Shown: positions 23,041-30,287 of the stretch, piece after piece
Numbering within the stretch: the first letter of the stretch is position 1
Layout: each line of letters starts with the position of its first letter
NCBI GenBank assembly: GCA_020061465.1
Contig: JAGUYG010000009.1
Location: 62,001-126,000, forward strand
Direction: 5' to 3'
Origin: Ignavibacteriales bacterium
GTDB taxonomy: Bacteria > Bacteroidota > Ignavibacteria > Ignavibacteriales > Ignavibacteriaceae
Length of the DNA: 64,000 bases
The notes under the pieces: generated by a model
Told to the model about the DNA's origin: nothing
Seen by the model: only the letters and a program-made list of their open reading frames with translations
Databases searched by the model: none
Made by a program: the position numbers and the translations under genes

Positions 23041-24624
23041 ATGAAATTACCAAATAGAATATTGTCAATAAATTTATTAGCACTGATCACCTTACCTTTC
23101 CTTGGGTTGAATCCGTTTGATGATTCCAAATGGTTCCCGCAAATATTGATGGACGATTCAAAAAATTATCTTCCCGATTTTTCTTTCGCTGGCTACCGTT
23201 GGGGGGAAACTGAATTGCCGTCAGCTTCAGGAAAAGTGTTAGATGTAACCAGCTTCGGAGCGGCAGCAAATGATAATATTGATGATACACCTGCATTTAA
23301 TACCGCAATCGCCTCTGCAAATAATTACGAAGGAAATGTTATCATTAGTGTTCCCCCAGGTAAATTTATTATTAAAGATATTTTATGGATAGAACGAAGT
23401 AATCTAATTCTACAAGGATCCGGAAATAATCATAATGGAACCATACTCTTAATGCCAACTCCGATGGAAGAAATGGAACTTCCTCCGAAGCTTGTGGAAT
23501 TAAAAACGTACCTTATCGATAATGATAAAAAAGTATCTACGGGTGAATATTTTTCGGTTTTTTCATGGACGGGCGGAATAATTTGGACAAGAAGCAAATC
23601 GATAAATCAACAAATATTAGCTGATGTTATCGAAGGGAAAAGGGGAGGACAAAAAATTATAGTAAGTGATAACTCGAAAATTAAGTCCGGCGATGTTCTT
23701 CAAATTCGCTGGTATAATACCGAAGGGAAACAGTCAACTCTATTAAATCATATCATGGATAACCAGGAAGTCATTTGCGGCGAAAGACTATATGAAGAAC
23801 CCGAAAAGTCGATAATCAAACAAGAAGTATCTATTCAATCGGTAGATAAAAATACTATAACAATTAAAGAAAAATTGTTACATGCTATTAAACCGGGGTG
23901 GAAGGTTGACCTGGCAGCAGTTAATTTTATCGAAGAAGTAGGTTTTGAAAATTTCACTGTCGAATTTCCGAATGTACCAAATAAAGGGCATCATATCGAA
24001 GCCGGATTTAATGCCTTCTATCTTACAGGACTTCTTCACTCGTGGATAAAAAATGTAAAAATTATTAATGCCGATAACGGTATCTTATCGGATGATTGTA
24101 AAAATGTGACGATAGAAAATTTGGAAGTAAGCGGTAGACATACGCATTATAATGTTCATCTGGGTGATTGCAGATATATGATTGTGAAAAATTTTAAATT
24201 TAATTCCAGCTCCTATCATACGCCCAGTTTCAATACAGGTTCAATCTTAAATGTATTTAGTGGCGGCTACGTTCGTGAAGCGAAATTGGATCAACACTGC
24301 GGGCTAAATCATCAAAACCTATTTGATAATCTTTACTTAGAATTGACAGAATTAAATAATCTGTTTGAACACGGAGGCGCTGGTTATTGGAAACCGACAG
24401 CCGGTGCGTTTAATACATTTTGGAATTTGAAAATTGAATATCAAGTAGCAGCAATTCCGAAAATAAACAACGCTCCGTCGGCACGCTTTGTGGGCATTCA
24501 CGGACCACAAAAATTGGAATTTGAGTACAGACCTAATGCATATTTTGAAGGAATGAACAAAGATAATATCAGCGTTCCGTCACTATATGATTATCAGCTT
24601 CAGCTAAGACTAAGTGGATTATAA
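23041..24624 (+). CDS. Pectate-lyase-3-like beta-helix protein without T9SS tail
   Basis: A 527-residue protein with a hydrophobic N-terminus. The motif LPDFSFAGYRWGE and a GH28-related start (VTSFGAAANDNIDDTPAF, VPPGKFIIKD) precede a long beta-helix. It is related in layout to the gene at 8378 but ends without a sorting domain, so it is probably periplasmic. It shares a 1-bp overlap (TAATG) with the downstream PL6 gene. A role on oligomers, as lyase or epimerase, is plausible, but no catalytic residues can be named. Confidence 0.75.
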   Translation: MKLPNRILSINLLALITLPFLGLNPFDDSKWFPQILMDDSKNYLPDFSFAGYRWGETELPSASGKVLDVTSFGAAANDNIDDTPAFNTAIASANNYEGNVIISVPPGKFIIKDILWIERSNLILQGSGNNHNGTILLMPTPMEEMELPPKLVELKTYLIDNDKKVSTGEYFSVFSWTGGIIWTRSKSINQQILADVIEGKRGGQKIIVSDNSKIKSGDVLQIRWYNTEGKQSTLLNHIMDNQEVICGERLYEEPEKSIIKQEVSIQSVDKNTITIKEKLLHAIKPGWKVDLAAVNFIEEVGFENFTVEFPNVPNKGHHIEAGFNAFYLTGLLHSWIKNVKIINADNGILSDDCKNVTIENLEVSGRHTHYNVHLGDCRYMIVKNFKFNSSSYHTPSFNTGSILNVFSGGYVREAKLDQHCGLNHQNLFDNLYLELTELNNLFEHGGAGYWKPTAGAFNTFWNLKIEYQVAAIPKINNAPSARFVGIHGPQKLEFEYRPNAYFEGMNKDNISVPSLYDYQLQLRLSGL

Positions 24625-26069
24625 TGAAAAAGTATTTAGCAGCTTTCGTTTTATCTTTATTCGTTATAAATATTTTCGCAAATCAATATAAAGTCTCATC
24701 AGCGGAAGAAATCAAAAGTATATTGAAAATTATTCAACCCGGTGATACAATAACGATGTTAAATGGTATTTGGAAAAATCAAGAGATAAAATTCATCGCA
24801 AAGGGAAAATTAGACTCACCGATTCTCCTCAAAGCCGAAACTCCCGGCGAAGTAATTTTAACAGGTTCTTCGAGCTTAAAATTAGCAGGTGAGTATTTGG
24901 TGGTAAACGGACTTTTATTTAAGGACGGAGCTATTGAGAAAGGAGCGGTAATCGAATTTCGAAGCGGAACTGATAAAGAAGCTAACTATTCCAGAGTTAC
25001 TAACTGCGCTATTATAAATTATAATCCACCGGATAAGGATACGGATTATAAATGGGTATCGCTTTACGGCGAATATAATAGAGTTGACCACTGCTATTTT
25101 AGAAATAAAACTCACTCAGGATGCTTATTAGTAGTTTGGCTTAGTGATAAACCGAATTATCACCGGATTGATTCCAATTACTTTGCATACCGACCGGAAC
25201 TTGGTTATAACGGTGGAGAAATAATCAGGGTAGGAACCAGTCATTGGTCAATGTACCCGTCGTACACCATTGTTGAATCCAATTACTTTGAAGATTGTAA
25301 TGGAGAAAGAGAGATCATTTCGAATAAATCGTTTTACAATACTTACAGACATAACACTTTTGTTCGATGCCAAGGAACGCTTACTCTTCGACATGGGAAT
25401 AGCTGCACAGTAGAAGGTAATTTTTTCTTTGGTGAAAATGTTCCGATGACCGGAGGAGTTAGAGTGATTGGTGAGGGGCATAAAATTTTCAATAATTATT
25501 TTTATCATCTTGTAGGAGAAGACGTTTTCGCAGCACTCCCTATAATGAACGGTGTGCCTGATTCTCCTCTAAACAGATATTTTCAAGTTAAGAGTGCTCA
25601 GATTTCTTTTAATACATTTGTTGACTGCAAATACAATATAGTTATAGGCACAGGAGCAGATGAAGAACTTTGCTTACCACCAATAAATTCTGTGGTAGCC
25701 AATAATATATTTTATAATACTGAAGAAAATATTGTAACATTGATTGATGAGCCTCAGAATTTTTTATGGGAAGGTAATATATATCATAATGCTCAATTAG
25801 GTATTGAATCAAACGGTTTTTCAGAAATTGATCCGCTGATTTCACAATTTACTGATGGGTTATTCCGTATCTCTGAAAATAGTCCGGCAATTGGAAATGC
25901 AGTTGGCAATTACAAATACGTTACTCACGATATGGATGGACAGCAAAGAAAAACTTCTAAAGATATTGGGTGTGATCAGTACTCGACTGACCCGGTAATT
26001 TATAAACCTCTAAAAGCGACCGATATTGGACCGAATTGGCTGCAAAATTTTTCAGAAATATTGTATTGA
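24624..26069 (+). CDS. PL6-family alginate lyase, single-domain
   Basis: A 481-residue PL6 lyase with signal peptide (to about IFANQ). The catalytic pair is K235 (ISNKSF) and R256-H257 (LTLRHGN), 21 residues apart, with a glutamate pair in GEREIIS just before. It matches the lyase half of the gene at 5656 closely across RVGTSHWSMY and GGVRVIGEGHK but lacks both the second beta-helix and the T9SS tail, so it is probably periplasmic. It ends the alginate block; a short AT-rich dyad at 26071-26087 follows. Confidence 0.87.
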   Translation: MKKYLAAFVLSLFVINIFANQYKVSSAEEIKSILKIIQPGDTITMLNGIWKNQEIKFIAKGKLDSPILLKAETPGEVILTGSSSLKLAGEYLVVNGLLFKDGAIEKGAVIEFRSGTDKEANYSRVTNCAIINYNPPDKDTDYKWVSLYGEYNRVDHCYFRNKTHSGCLLVVWLSDKPNYHRIDSNYFAYRPELGYNGGEIIRVGTSHWSMYPSYTIVESNYFEDCNGEREIISNKSFYNTYRHNTFVRCQGTLTLRHGNSCTVEGNFFFGENVPMTGGVRVIGEGHKIFNNYFYHLVGEDVFAALPIMNGVPDSPLNRYFQVKSAQISFNTFVDCKYNIVIGTGADEELCLPPINSVVANNIFYNTEENIVTLIDEPQNFLWEGNIYHNAQLGIESNGFSEIDPLISQFTDGLFRISENSPAIGNAVGNYKYVTHDMDGQQRKTSKDIGCDQYSTDPVIYKPLKATDIGPNWLQNFSEILY

Positions 26070-26170
26070 AATTCCAATTATTGGAATAATCTGATTTGTT
26101 AGTAGTATCTGTAAGCATCATTTTTTTTTCTCAGCTAAGTTAACCCCGCTTTTTATATTTAAATATTCCA

Positions 26171-26206
26171 GCTGTATTTTGAGTCCAGTTAACTACCAAT
26201 TCTGCT
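26171..26206 (-). pseudogene. tRNA-Leu 5'-half fragment 1
   Basis: The minus strand carries the D-loop (AGAATTGGTAG) and anticodon-arm (CTGGACTCAAAATACAG) region of tRNA-Leu(CAA), with a mismatch in the anticodon stem. Neither a variable arm nor a T-arm follows. Two similar fragments lie at 26506 and 26790, each just ahead of a GTACC[GA]AAG acceptor-like sequence. Confidence 0.6.
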
Positions 26207-26211
26207 ATGAT

Positions 26212-26395
26212 GTACCGAAGGTCTGTCTCCGTTTCACTTCGCCAGATAAACCGGACTCGAATCTAACTATCAGTAGACAAGCCTGCATGAGATGTAAACC
26301 TTACTAACAATAAAATGTTTGGGGTTGCTCTAAAAATTCCGCAGATGAGTAGTACCGAAGGCCGGACTCGAACCGGCACGAGGTGTGAGCCTCAC
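26212..26395 (-). repeat. Long direct repeat, copy 1 (with tRNA-Leu 3' half)
   Basis: This 184-bp stretch recurs at 26541-26724 with only a few substitutions. The first ~141 bp look like a decayed tRNA-Leu 3' half (GTACCGAAG, then CCGGACTCGAATC), interrupted by about 30 bp (TCTGTCTCCGTTTCACTTCG onward). The last ~43 bp are the T-arm and variable arm of the next tRNA-like copy. Confidence 0.8.
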
Positions 26396-26477
26396 CAACC
26401 AATTTTTTAACAAATTAAAAATTGTTTGGTAAACTGGATTTTGAGTCCAGTTTATCTACCAATTCCACCACTTCGGC
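26353..26477 (-). pseudogene. tRNA-Leu(CAA)-like copy with 39-nt insert
   Basis: Acceptor (GCCGAAG / CTTCGGT), anticodon arm with CAA at 26441-26443, variable arm (GAGG ... CCTC) and T-arm (GCCGGTTCGAGTCCGGC) match the intact copy at 26682. The D-stem is damaged (GTG against TAA). A 39-nt insert at 26395-26433 sits between the anticodon stem and variable arm. The insert folds into a 13-bp hairpin with one mismatch and a 9-nt loop. The anticodon stem can extend to 9 bp. It is probably not a working tRNA, but its conserved arms suggest recent origin or some structural role. Confidence 0.65.
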
Positions 26478-26505
26478 ATGAAAAAATTCAAATAACCGAA
26501 CCGAA

Positions 26506-26540
26506 TTTAGGATCCAGTTATCTATCAATTATCCGATGAA
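26506..26540 (-). pseudogene. tRNA-Leu 5'-half fragment 2
   Basis: A more decayed relative of the fragment at 26171. On the minus strand TTGATAGATAACTGGATCC keeps the D-loop end and the 5' side of the anticodon stem, but the anticodon loop is altered. It again sits directly ahead of GTACCGAAG of the next repeat unit. Confidence 0.45.
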
Positions 26541-26724
26541 GTACCGAAGATCTGTCTCCGTTTCACTTCGCCAGATAAACCGGACTCGAATCTAACTATC
26601 AGTAGACAAGCCTGCCTGAGATGCAAGCCTTACTAACAATAAAATGTTTGGGGTTGCTCTAAAAATTCCGCAGATGAGTAGTACCGAAGGCCGGACTCGA
26701 ACCGGCACGAGGTGTGAGCCTCAC
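26541..26724 (-). repeat. Long direct repeat, copy 2 (with tRNA-Leu 3' half)
   Basis: Second copy of the 184-bp unit at 26212, offset by 329 bp, with differences mainly around GCCTGCCTGAGATGCAAGCC. It runs into the intact tRNA-Leu. The match stops where copy 1 has its 39-nt insert and resumes beyond it in the anticodon arm. Confidence 0.8.
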
Positions 26725-26767
26725 TGGATTTTGAGTCCAGCGCGTCTACCAATTCCGCCACTTCGGC
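26682..26767 (-). tRNA. tRNA-Leu(CAA)
   Basis: An 86-nt class II tRNA. The acceptor is GCCGAAG / CTTCGGT with G1-U72 as a wobble pair and discriminator A. The D-stem is GCG/CGC, with GG in the D-loop. The anticodon stem is CTGGA/TCCAG, and anticodon CAA lies at 26731-26733. The long variable arm is GAGG-CTCACA-CCTC and the T-arm GCCGG TTCGAGT CCGGC. The CCA end is not encoded. It reads UUG leucine codons. It is the only one of the three full-length copies with all stems intact. Confidence 0.9.
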
Positions 26768-26789
26768 AAGAATAAATTTTAAAAAAAAT

Positions 26790-26828
26790 CTGTATTTTGA
26801 GTCCAGTTTATCTATCAATTCCACCATC
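26790..26828 (-). pseudogene. tRNA-Leu 5'-half fragment 3
   Basis: The minus strand reads a D-arm and anticodon arm (GGTGGAATTGATAGATAAAC, then CTGGACTCAAAATACAG) with the same anticodon-stem mismatch as fragment 1 and the copy at 26832. It is followed in the array by GTACCAAAG of that last copy. Confidence 0.55.
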
Positions 26829-26831
26829 AAG

Positions 26832-26956
26832 TACCAAAGGCCGGACTCGAACCGGCACGAGGTGTGAGCCTCACCAACCAATTTTTCAACAAATAAAAAA
26901 TTGTTTGGTAAGCTGTATTTTGAGTCCAGTTTATCTACCAATTCCGCCACTTCGGC
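26832..26956 (-). pseudogene. tRNA-Leu(CAA)-like copy with 39-nt insert, decayed
   Basis: Same architecture as the copy at 26353, including a 39-nt insert at 26874-26912 whose 13-bp hairpin stem is unchanged while two loop bases differ. The acceptor has a mismatch (GCCGAAG against CTTTGGT), the D-stem cannot form (GCG against TAA), and the anticodon stem has one mismatch. T-arm and variable arm are perfect. It is probably non-functional in translation. Confidence 0.65.
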
Positions 26957-27056
26957 AACAGCATGTAAAAGATGAGATGACTTAAAAAATGCGCTGCAAT
27001 TTTAAACCAAATTACTCAGAGTTTCAAGTTAATGAACACTTTGCACAAATCATTCG

Positions 27057-28802
27057 TTAACTCGTTTTGCTGATCTTTGCCCATGTATCCCGCAACGGCA
27101 CTGTTCTATTAAAAACAAATTTTCCTTCCTTAGTATCGACAGTATCCACACAGAAATAACCAAGTCTTTCAAATTGAAATTTATCACCCGGCTTCGAATT
27201 TAATAAGCTTTTTTCCATCTTACATGTATCAAGAATTTCTAAAGAATTAGGATTAATCAATTCCATAAAATCTTTTTCTTTTTCGTATGAAGGATCTTCA
27301 ACTAAAAATAATCTATCATACAATCGAACTTCGGCTTCAATTGCATCGACTGCCGAAACCCAATGTATGGTCCCTTTTACTTTTTTATCGGAAGTTCCGC
27401 TGCCGCTTTTTGTAGCAGGATCATAGGTACATCTTAGTTCAAGTACTTCGCCTGTCTTATTATCCTTTATAACTTTTTCGCACTTGATTATGTAAGCATA
27501 CCTCAATCGTACCTCAGTTCCCGGCGAAAGTCTAAAAAATTTCTTCGGGGGAAACTCAAGAAAATCTTCGCGCTCAATAAAAATCTCACGGGAGAAGGTT
27601 ACCCTACGTTTTCCCATTGACAAATCTTCAGGATTATTTATTGCATCCAATTCCTCGGTTTGATTCTCGGGATAATTTTCAATCACCACTTTCAAGGGTT
27701 TAAGCACAGCCATTACCCGCATTGCCCGTTTATTTAAATCTTCACGAATGCTGTGTTCGAGCAGGGCAACATCTATCATGTTATCCCGCTTTGCTACACC
27801 GACTCTTTCAGAAAATAAACGTATCGATTCGGGTGTATAACCGCGACGCCGCAAAGCTGAAATAGTAGGCATTCTTGGGTCATCCCATCCCGATACAATT
27901 TGTTCTTCAACTAATTGAAGAAGCTTGCGTTTACTCATAACTGTATATGAAAGATTTAATCGCGCAAACTCGATTTGCTGGGGATGATATATTTCTAATT
28001 CGTCTAAAAACCAATCATACAAAGGGCGATGATTTTCAAACTCTAAAGTACAAATTGAATGCGTAATACCTTCAATGGAATCGCTTTGACCATGCGCCCA
28101 ATCGTACATAGGGTAAATACACCATTTATTGTCCGTTCGATGGTGAGATGCATGCCGGATTCGATACATTATCGGGTCTCTTAAATTCATATTTGGAGAC
28201 GACATATCGATCTTTGCTCTTAGAACATGTTCACCTTCTTTAAATTCACCTGCACGCATTCGCTCGAATAATGATAAATTTTCTTCTGCTGAACGGTTTC
28301 GATAAGGGCTTTCCTTTCCGGGTTCGGTATGGGTTCCTCTGTACCCTCTTATTTCCTCCATCGTAAGTGAATCGACGTAAGCTTTTCCTTTTTTAATTAA
28401 CTTAACTGCATACTCAAATAATTGCTCGAAGTAGTCGGAAGCAAAATACAATCTGTCACCCCAATCAAAACCGAGCCAACGTAAGTCCTCAATAATAGAA
28501 TCTACGTATTCAACTTCCTCTTTCGTAGGATTCGTATCATCAAAACGAAGGTTGCATAATCCGCCGTAAGTTTCGGCTAAACCAAAATTAAGACAAATTG
28601 ATTTTGCATGTCCGATGTGTAAATAACCGTTCGGTTCAGGAGGAAAACGTGTATGTACCTTTCCGCCGTATTTATTTGTTTTTAAATCTTCATCAATAAT
28701 TTCTGTAATGAAATTACCCGGTTTGATAGATGCATTATTTTCGTTTTTAATATCGGTTTTGTTCAAGTCCCGTAGATTTTTTGTGTTTTCAGGATTATTC
28801 AT
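27057..28802 (-). CDS. glnS: Glutaminyl-tRNA synthetase
   Basis: A class I aminoacyl-tRNA synthetase of 581 residues charging tRNA-Gln. It has the HIGH motif in [12 protein letters not shown], the KMSKS-equivalent [10 protein letters not shown], and GlnS-type segments [20 protein letters not shown] (read as NLRFDDTNP) and [17 protein letters not shown]-terminal beta-barrel anticodon-binding region follows. A longer start at 28811 sits directly on the AGAAGG ribosome site; ATG 28802 gives normal spacing and was chosen. gltX lies just upstream on the same strand. Confidence 0.95.
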
Positions 28803-28835
28803 TTTACACATCCTTCTTTAGAACGGACGATTATT

Positions 28836-30287
28836 TTAAGATAACTTTTCAATTGCTTTTTTTATTCTATCTATTGTTTTCTCTTTTCCGATTATGAATA
28901 AGATATCATATACTCCGGGTCCGGCTCCCATTCCCGAAACAGCTAAGCGAAGCGGATGGATGAGTTTTCCTATACCCAAATTCAAATTTTCTGTTGTTTT
29001 TTTAAGAGCATTTTCAAAATCTTCTTTACCCGGATTATTCAATAAAGAAAACTCTTCACTAAGTTTTGAAAGATAAACCGGAGTTTCTACAGTCCATCGC
29101 TTCTTAATAACGTCGGGATCGTAATTTTCAATTTCAGCAAAGAAATAAGGACTCTTGGTTATGACTTCACTTACGAAAGTAATTCGTTCTTTCATCGAGT
29201 CAATAACTTTTGTTAAATACTCATCGGAAAAAAAAGATTCATCATAAACTGAATTTTTTAGTGCGCTTCTCAATTCCGGTAAAAGCTCTACTGAATTTTT
29301 ATTCCGGATATGTTCTGCATTTAACCAATTAAGTTTTTCAGTGTTAAAAATAGCGCCGGCTTTGTTAACACTTGCTAATGAAAATTTTTCGATCAATTCA
29401 TTCATGTAATAGAACTCTTTATCATCACCGGCATTCCATCCTAAGAGCGCAACAAAATTTATTAGCGCTTCTTTCAAATAACCCTTTGCGCGATAGTCTT
29501 CCACTGCAACATCTCCCTGCCGCTTGCTTAATTTGGATCGGTCTGGATTAAGCAGAAGAGGGAGGTGGGCAAACACGGGTCTATTCCATCCAAAAAAATC
29601 ATAAAGAAGTATATGCTTCGGCGTAGAAGACAACCATTCTTCACCACGTATAACGTGAGTAATTTTCATTAGGTGATCATCTACTACATTGGCTAAATGA
29701 TATGTAGGATAACCGTCGCTTTTTATTAGCACCTGATCGTCAAGAGTTTCGGAGTTGAATTCAACACGACCCCGAATAACATCATCAATTTCAATAATTT
29801 GGTTTTGAGGAACATTCAACCTAATAACATACGGTTTTAATGCACTCAAATTCTTTTGAATTTCTTCAGGGGTAAGGTTCAAACAGAATTTGTCATATTT
29901 GGCTTGATCTTTTGTATGTTTCTGTTCTTGTCTCAACATACTAAGACGTTCTGGTGAGCAGAAACAGTAATAAGCTTTGTCTTTCTTAATTAATTCCTGT
30001 GCGTGCGTTCTGTAAATATCGAGTCTTTTCGATTGAATGTATGGGCCATAATCACCTCCCTTATCGGGACCCTCATCATAGTCTAAGCCTGTCCAATGTA
30101 AGGTAGAAATTAAATTTTCAACTGCACCGTCAACGAAACGATTGCGGTCAGTATCTTCTATTCTTAGGATAAATTTTCCGTCATGGTGTCTTGCAAAAAG
30201 AAAATTAAAGAGTGCTGTACGAAGCCCGCCGACATGCAAGTAGCCTGTTGGACTAGGAGCGAACCGTACACGCGGAGTAATATTCAT
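28836..30287 (-). CDS. gltX: Glutamyl-tRNA synthetase
   Basis: A 483-residue class I synthetase charging tRNA-Glu. The HIGH-type motif is PSPTGYLHVGGLRTALFN and the KMSKS loop is KLSKRQGD. GRVEF, HVIRGEEWLSSTPKH and LGWN motifs are also typical. Length is normal. It is the first gene of a two-synthetase unit with glnS (33-bp gap). The two enzymes share the class I fold but have different N-terminal signatures, so this is not a recent duplication. Confidence 0.95.
   Translation of the reverse strand: MNITPRVRFAPSPTGYLHVGGLRTALFNFLFARHHDGKFILRIEDTDRNRFVDGAVENLISTLHWTGLDYDEGPDKGGDYGPYIQSKRLDIYRTHAQELIKKDKAYYCFCSPERLSMLRQEQKHTKDQAKYDKFCLNLTPEEIQKNLSALKPYVIRLNVPQNQIIEIDDVIRGRVEFNSETLDDQVLIKSDGYPTYHLANVVDDHLMKITHVIRGEEWLSSTPKHILLYDFFGWNRPVFAHLPLLLNPDRSKLSKRQGDVAVEDYRAKGYLKEALINFVALLGWNAGDDKEFYYMNELIEKFSLASVNKAGAIFNTEKLNWLNAEHIRNKNSVELLPELRSALKNSVYDESFFSDEYLTKVIDSMKERITFVSEVITKSPYFFAEIENYDPDVIKKRWTVETPVYLSKLSEEFSLLNNPGKEDFENALKKTTENLNLGIGKLIHPLRLAVSGMGAGPGVYDILFIIGKEKTIDRIKKAIEKLS

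Follow-up and report, generated by a model that had tools for sequence, protein, structure and literature searches.

A cluster of broken tRNA-Leu(CAA) copies in an Ignavibacteriales genome: probable nuclease-less remains of a tRNA-targeting GIY-YIG element

Introduction

Why would a bacterium keep one working tRNA gene in the midst of broken copies of the same gene? The question is raised by a locus in a 64,000-nucleotide stretch of an Ignavibacteriales draft genome (contig JAGUYG010000009.1, positions 62,001 to 126,000; hereafter the window), where copies of tRNA-Leu(CAA) crowd together close to glnS. A first-pass annotation of this DNA had suggested repeated duplication, recombination or integration at a tRNA. 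Here we describe the array and compare it with tRNA loci in the same genome, in the order and across other phyla. With a probability of roughly three in four, we consider that a tRNA-targeting GIY-YIG homing element inserted here repeatedly and was amplified in tandem, and that the array is what is left of it after decay and loss of the nuclease.

Eight copies of one tRNA in the window

In the array, eight tRNA-Leu(CAA) copies follow one another head to tail on the minus strand between 26171 and 26956, in the order A-a'-B-C-b'-D-E-e' along that strand from 26956 to 26171. Alignment and Rfam scores confirmed the three full-length copies, three 5' halves and two long direct repeats that the first-pass annotation had listed in less than 800 bp of this strand; its inventory had missed two further decayed copies inside the repeats (C and E), which bring the total to eight. 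The features are listed below.

26832..26956, minus strand: copy A, full-length displaced tRNA-Leu(CAA), with D-arm CGCG changed to TAAA, a broken anticodon stem (ATACAG) and a 39-nt V-arm hairpin
26874..26912, minus strand: V-arm hairpin insert of A (CTTACCAAAC...TTGGTTGG)
26790..26830, minus strand: a', decayed 5' half with the GATAAACTGGACTCAAAATACAG signature
26682..26767, minus strand: copy B, sole intact tRNA-Leu(CAA) (ARAGORN; Rfam 60.4 bits)
26542..26680, minus strand: copy C, strongly decayed, with two hairpin inserts (alignment with B and E)
26591..26610, minus strand: T-loop insert of C (CTTGTCTACTGATAGTTAGA)
26551..26579, minus strand: T-stem/acceptor-junction insert of C (TTTATCTGGCGAAGTGAAACGGAGACAGA)
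26501..26540, minus strand: b', decayed 5' half
26353..26477, minus strand: copy D, full-length displaced, with D-arm TAAA, a 39-nt V-arm hairpin and the anticodon stem kept (41.9 bits)
26394..26432, minus strand: V-arm hairpin insert of D
26213..26351, minus strand: copy E, strongly decayed, 136/140 identical to C
26222..26250, minus strand: T/acceptor-junction insert of E
26171..26211, minus strand: e', decayed 5' half with ACTCAAAATACAG
27057..28811, minus strand: glnS, flanking gene upstream of the array (Pfam PF00749/PF03950)

Only the middle full-length copy, B, keeps every stem, as had been proposed: ARAGORN calls a single tRNA in the window, Leu(CAA) at 26681-26767, and with the Rfam tRNA model (cmscan) B scores 60.4 bits with no broken pair. 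By the same measure D, which has a D-stem mismatch in addition to its 39-nt V-arm insert, scores 41.9 bits, and A reaches 22.5 bits, below the gathering score of 29. Among the tRNA genes scored, B is also the only intact Leu(CAA) of the host genome. C and E are recognizable by alignment as badly decayed tRNA-Leu, each with two hairpin inserts and each lying inside a long direct repeat. BLAST matches between the pieces and the intact gene, with E-values down to 4.9e-15, are far beyond chance.

The first direct repeat (26157-26395 and 26486-26724; 239 nt, 92% identity) holds E and C, and the second (26351-26478 and 26830-26957; 128 nt, 95% identity) corresponds to D and A. It follows that the array grew through duplication of units, each made up of a tRNA, a decayed copy and a 5' half, which have diverged since.

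Besides glnS, the neighbours of the array are a second class-I (Glu/Gln-type) tRNA synthetase gene and a chondroitinase-B-family lyase gene; no integrase or transposase gene was seen among the neighbouring ORFs, in agreement with the first-pass annotation as regards integrases. The Rfam scan of 24000-29000 contained no group I or group II intron family, and the intact tRNA adjoins the copies. We discarded a mir-4077 match in the Rfam scan of the region as due to chance. No GIY-YIG gene is present on the window's contig, and a search of the array for a nuclease remnant found none (best tblastn 17 bits, below shuffles). The array itself thus encodes no nuclease and is best read as a nuclease-less relic. 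Phages and plasmids searched with the array gave matches only of tRNA-Leu length, and an exact-pattern scan of genome contigs gave no match.

Small GIY-YIG genes between intact and displaced tRNAs

At other tRNA genes of the host genome and of its relatives, free-standing GIY-YIG endonuclease genes of ~80 aa are flanked by an intact tRNA and by a displaced piece of that tRNA. The host genome contains such small ORFs behind tRNA-Pro(CGG) and tRNA-Asn, with displaced pieces beyond them, and a decayed one behind tRNA-Ala. Displaced same-strand pieces lie near 8 of the 39 scored host tRNAs, a set that leaves out some loci without a prediction, tRNA-Asn among them. Another small GIY-YIG ORF (L049, host contig C36) is located ~340 bp behind the tmRNA gene, which may be a further target of these proteins.

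A protein motif search of named bacterial genomes retrieved at least 522 relatives. Of the best 80, which were picked by a C-terminal motif and do not yield an unbiased rate, 61 lie less than 400 bp from a tRNA, all on the same strand, and many of the rest are on truncated contigs; this set comes from Ignavibacteriota, Bacteroidota, several candidate phyla, Omnitrophota and Margulisbacteria. In complete genomes, the small-GIY loci found at tRNAs are 6/6 in G048 (16 ORFs), 4/11 in G035 and 1/5 in G044, compared with 0.9% for random positions. Another type of small GIY-YIG protein, with a W.R.KK-like motif and sorted by eye, is encoded at 15 loci in the family's genomes, none of them tRNA-linked. 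The 2.9 million viral contigs of IMG/VR contain three relatives, against at least 522 in genome contigs.

The Pfam domain PF01541 is detected in these proteins with E down to 4e-16, and Pfam and NCBIfam showed nothing in them beyond this general GIY-YIG domain. The catalytic residues Y5, Y16, G18, R26 and E62 are present in 98-100% of 103 proteins and dN/dS lies between 0.07 and 0.29; the protein is therefore under purifying selection. At one locus (L071), the last codons of the GIY-YIG ORF overlap the intact tRNA-Ser gene that follows it, at the 5' end of that gene.

Polarity, tandem units and isotype

In the set of loci compared here, all tRNA-adjacent ORFs are on the strand of the tRNA (119/119), and a displaced piece lies beyond the ORF in 84 cases. 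The same strand rule applies to the fragments, 150 of which were found on the tRNA strand and none on the opposite one in a search of both strands. Pieces upstream of the tRNA carry its 5' end (49 cases) and those downstream its 3' end (41 cases), except for seven downstream pieces that keep the 5' end. This polarity is what a tRNA-restoring insertion would leave.

Near-identical units of piece plus ORF form tandem arrays in the single-contig genomes G048, G035 and G043. Six loci adjoining tRNA-Leu, Asp, Arg, Ser and Pro genes (L145, L146, L147, L152, L064, L098) consist of 3-5 near-identical units of GIY-YIG gene and tRNA fragment, with periods of ~289-450 bp. One empty site was found: the upstream flank meets the intact tRNA directly in G079, and G078 has 362 bp at this place with two displaced copies and no full nuclease upstream of the tRNA. 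The flanks of G066 and G068 are offset by ~284 and 381 bp.

The nucleases form isotype-specific clades. The protein tree, built on 78 columns and with many weak forks, requires 22 isotype changes, compared with 52.8 when labels are shuffled (minimum 46). Leu-associated ORFs from several phyla group in one clade, starred in the tree, together with six Arg-associated rows.

Inserts shared with nuclease-bearing loci

At the tRNA-Leu locus L166 (evidently G022:C190), from the same family as the host, an intact tRNA-Leu(CAA) is followed by an intact GIY-YIG ORF and then by a displaced tRNA-Leu copy. The GATAAACTGG..ATACAG signature and the V-arm hairpin are common to this nuclease-bearing locus and to the broken copies of the window. 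The displaced copy of L166 bears GATAAACTGGACTCAAAATACAG and a TTTACCAAAC..TTGGT V-arm insert, as in A and D of the window. GATAAACTGGACTCAAAATACAG is shared with it by A and a', and e' has the 3' part; the TTACCAAAC..TTGGT V-arm insert is found in A, in D and in the L166 copy behind the ORF. Of 164 genomes, three have a match to the signature pattern, in all cases at tRNA-Leu(CAA), and copies with the TAAA signature persist across several genera.

The positions of the inserts also agree between loci. The V-arm insert of A follows tRNA position 44/45 and has the same site and ends in L166, L137 and L029. At 16/20 positions, compared by eye, the T-loop insert of C and E is identical to CCTGTCTACCGACAGGTAGA, which occupies the same site of the T loop in the GIY-YIG-bearing units of L098. 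The pattern of their junction insert has three occurrences in the host genome: one each in C and E, and a third in a displaced tRNA-Met copy, where it occupies the same tRNA position. More generally, 93 inserts were counted in the D, anticodon, variable or T regions of displaced copies; their inverted-repeat stems average 5.9 bp, against 2.8 bp when shuffled.

We considered that displaced copies might have been carried in with the element; this was not supported, since in the cases read the V arm matches that of the tRNA in the same genome. Given this match, the signature and the inserts would have come either by conversion or recurrently at fixed sites.

At a tRNA-Met locus of the host (L265, contig C43), displaced tRNA-Met copies flank the intact gene on both sides and carry hairpins at the D, anticodon, T and T/acceptor positions; no nuclease was seen at the locus. 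We rejected the TCCCGA..TCGGGA palindrome as a tRNA-specific element: TCCCGAY..RTCGGGA palindromes occur at 19 places in the host genome (0 for the reversed control), of which only some are at tRNAs and most lie away from tRNA fragments.

tRNA-Leu(CAA) loci across the order

We compared 90 tRNA-Leu(CAA) loci of the order, counting that of the window. Displaced same-strand pieces are present at 16 of them, a small GIY-YIG ORF at 13 and either at 24; these are lower bounds, with many contigs ending beside the tRNA and one locus with three displaced pieces (L140) found later. The remaining 66 show neither fragments nor nuclease. The nearest ORF is in every case on the same strand and at most ~210 bp from the tRNA, with tandem copies further away (L098). 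The order is intact tRNA, ORF and 3' piece in L019 and L127, and 5' piece, ORF and intact tRNA in L043.

Comparison of the glnS-flanking locus revealed duplication, recombination and insertion at this tRNA in related genomes, in some cases again next to glnS (L029); read by eye, glnS flanks tRNA-Leu(CAA) in L029, L101 and L038. We encountered no relative with three intact tRNAs at this site, only single intact copies with or without broken ones; in L036, two near-intact tRNA-Leu copies are separated by an assembly gap (N gap). The earlier suggestion of duplication, recombination or insertion at one tRNA holds, but the agent is probably neither an integrase nor plain duplication.

Nuclease-less tRNA-Leu arrays are about as common as nuclease-bearing ones. 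One of them (L106, in G134) consists of units that keep only the C-terminal end of the GIY-YIG protein (27 bits, 2e-5). It looks like an internally deleted, non-autonomous form, and suggests how nuclease-less arrays may arise. Two others lie upstream of the intact gene and are made of tRNA-Leu 5' pieces with a D-loop palindrome: L035 (G048), a tandem array of about nine 77-bp units, and L140 (G029), with three units.

Proposed origin of the array and alternatives

Intact versions of the proposed element are made up of an ~80-aa GIY-YIG ORF and duplicated tRNA sequence. With the ORF placed between the restored intact tRNA and the displaced piece, host translation is spared. Presumably, the nuclease acts on tRNA genes of its own isotype that are still unoccupied: it would cut them, and homologous repair would then copy the element into the cut gene. 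Further breaks at the duplicated tRNA sequence could lead, through tandem duplication and gene conversion, to arrays. Displaced pieces acquire small hairpins in one or other tRNA loop (D, anticodon, variable or T), and we infer that these protect them against recutting. In the window, the nuclease would have been lost, and one working tRNA-Leu(CAA) is left. Several observations weigh against this proposal: the array has no nuclease remnant, 66 of the 90 tRNA-Leu(CAA) loci have neither fragments nor nuclease, arrays with and without a nuclease are about equally common, the signature and inserts call for conversion or recurrent insertion, and few of the small-GIY loci of G035 and G044 are at tRNAs.

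Plain tandem duplication by slippage or unequal crossing-over, followed by decay of the spare copies and with no mobile element involved, would suit direct repeats of 92-95% identity, an array without a nuclease remnant and the broken copies without an ORF at many tRNA-Leu loci. We nevertheless consider it unlikely: it does not account for hairpin inserts at the same tRNA positions, and some of the same sequence, as in copies flanking GIY-YIG ORFs, for displaced pieces at 8/39 scored host tRNAs, or for the strict fragment polarity. The broken copies might instead be kept for a function, as decoy or regulatory RNAs (for example a bait for a tRNA-cutting nuclease) or as target sites to which the hairpins confer resistance. 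Consistent with this, the folds of A and D are more stable than those of shuffled sequences (z -3.4 and -4.5) and TAAA-signature copies persist in several genera; the stability, however, comes largely from the inserted hairpins, and the copies are free to decay, their number varies and most relatives have none, which makes such a role improbable.

tRNA genes are frequent targets of integrases, and duplicated 3' ends are typical of such sites, so that tyrosine recombinase islands which integrated and excised again and again at tRNA-Leu could have left att-like fragments behind. This is very unlikely here, as there is no integrase among the neighbouring ORFs, att repeats are usually 3' ends and not 5' halves and whole copies, and the ORFs wedged at the relatives' tRNAs are GIY-YIG nucleases. 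That the array is an assembly artefact is hardly credible, even though the host genome is a draft of 122 contigs and L036 has an N gap with a tRNA-Leu copy on either side: the divergence of 5-8% between the copies makes a simple duplication during assembly unlikely, and their inserts differ; the window is internal to a 129-kb contig, and comparable arrays are found in the single-contig genomes G043, G048 and G035.

Comparison with known systems and implications

The tRNA-targeting GIY-YIG element proposed here has its closest known counterparts in phage SegB and in fungal mitochondrial mobile ORFs. SegB of phages T4 and T6 is a free-standing GIY-YIG homing endonuclease that is encoded beside tRNA genes and cuts within them; in phages it shows enrichment close to tRNAs, and through recombination it drives the unit of tRNA plus segB to amplify in tandem (PMC13096335, 2026). 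The two share a GIY-YIG enzyme encoded at tRNA genes and tandem units. SegB is phage-encoded, with no isotype preference reported (PMC13096335), whereas the present elements reside in chromosomes of Ignavibacteriota, Bacteroidota and candidate phyla, encode a single-domain protein of ~80 aa, fall into isotype-specific clades and have displaced tRNA pieces with loop hairpins. The mobile ORFs of Glomus and Allomyces atp6 mitochondrial genes carry a duplicated 3' end of the gene (PMC3630166). Here too an endonuclease ORF lies in an essential gene, which the duplicated end restores while the native end is displaced downstream (PMC3630166). These fungal ORFs are found in mitochondrial protein genes, with a LAGLIDADG enzyme in the atp6 case; the present elements differ in their bacterial tRNA targets, their 5' as well as 3' restoration, their hairpin inserts and their tandem arrays.

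Tyrosine-integrase elements at tRNAs also leave the tRNA functional after insertion, and fragments remain. The present elements differ from them in having no integrase, in their 5' fragments and full copies, and in units of ~300 bp. REP/REPIN-like palindromes likewise combine short hairpins with a DNA-processing enzyme, TnpA-REP (PMC3116915, PMC8266576), whereas the hairpins found here occupy fixed loop positions within displaced tRNA copies and occur together with GIY-YIG ORFs. The available part of a 2006 survey of the GIY-YIG superfamily does not mention an association with tRNA genes (PMC1564403). In the literature searched, which included few subscription papers and no preprints, only SegB and the fungal mitochondrial ORFs were relevant to bacterial GIY-YIG genes at tRNA genes, and we found no report of a chromosomal bacterial version.

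A broader reading, for which we see the odds as even, is that widespread mobile elements of bacterial chromosomes live by cutting tRNA genes: isotype-specific minimal GIY-YIG nucleases would restore the invaded tRNA, displace the old copy and 'lock' it against recutting with loop hairpins. They would have spread across phyla and turned tRNA loci into tandem arrays, one of which, now a fossil, would be preserved in the window. If this is true, tRNA genes, which rank with the most constrained genes of all, would be broken and rebuilt time and again, isotype by isotype and across phyla; their evolution would have a new driver, and broken tRNA copies one of their sources. The principle of SegB and of the mitochondrial mobile ORFs would then extend to bacterial chromosomes, which may offer a supply of small nucleases with apparent tRNA-gene specificity.
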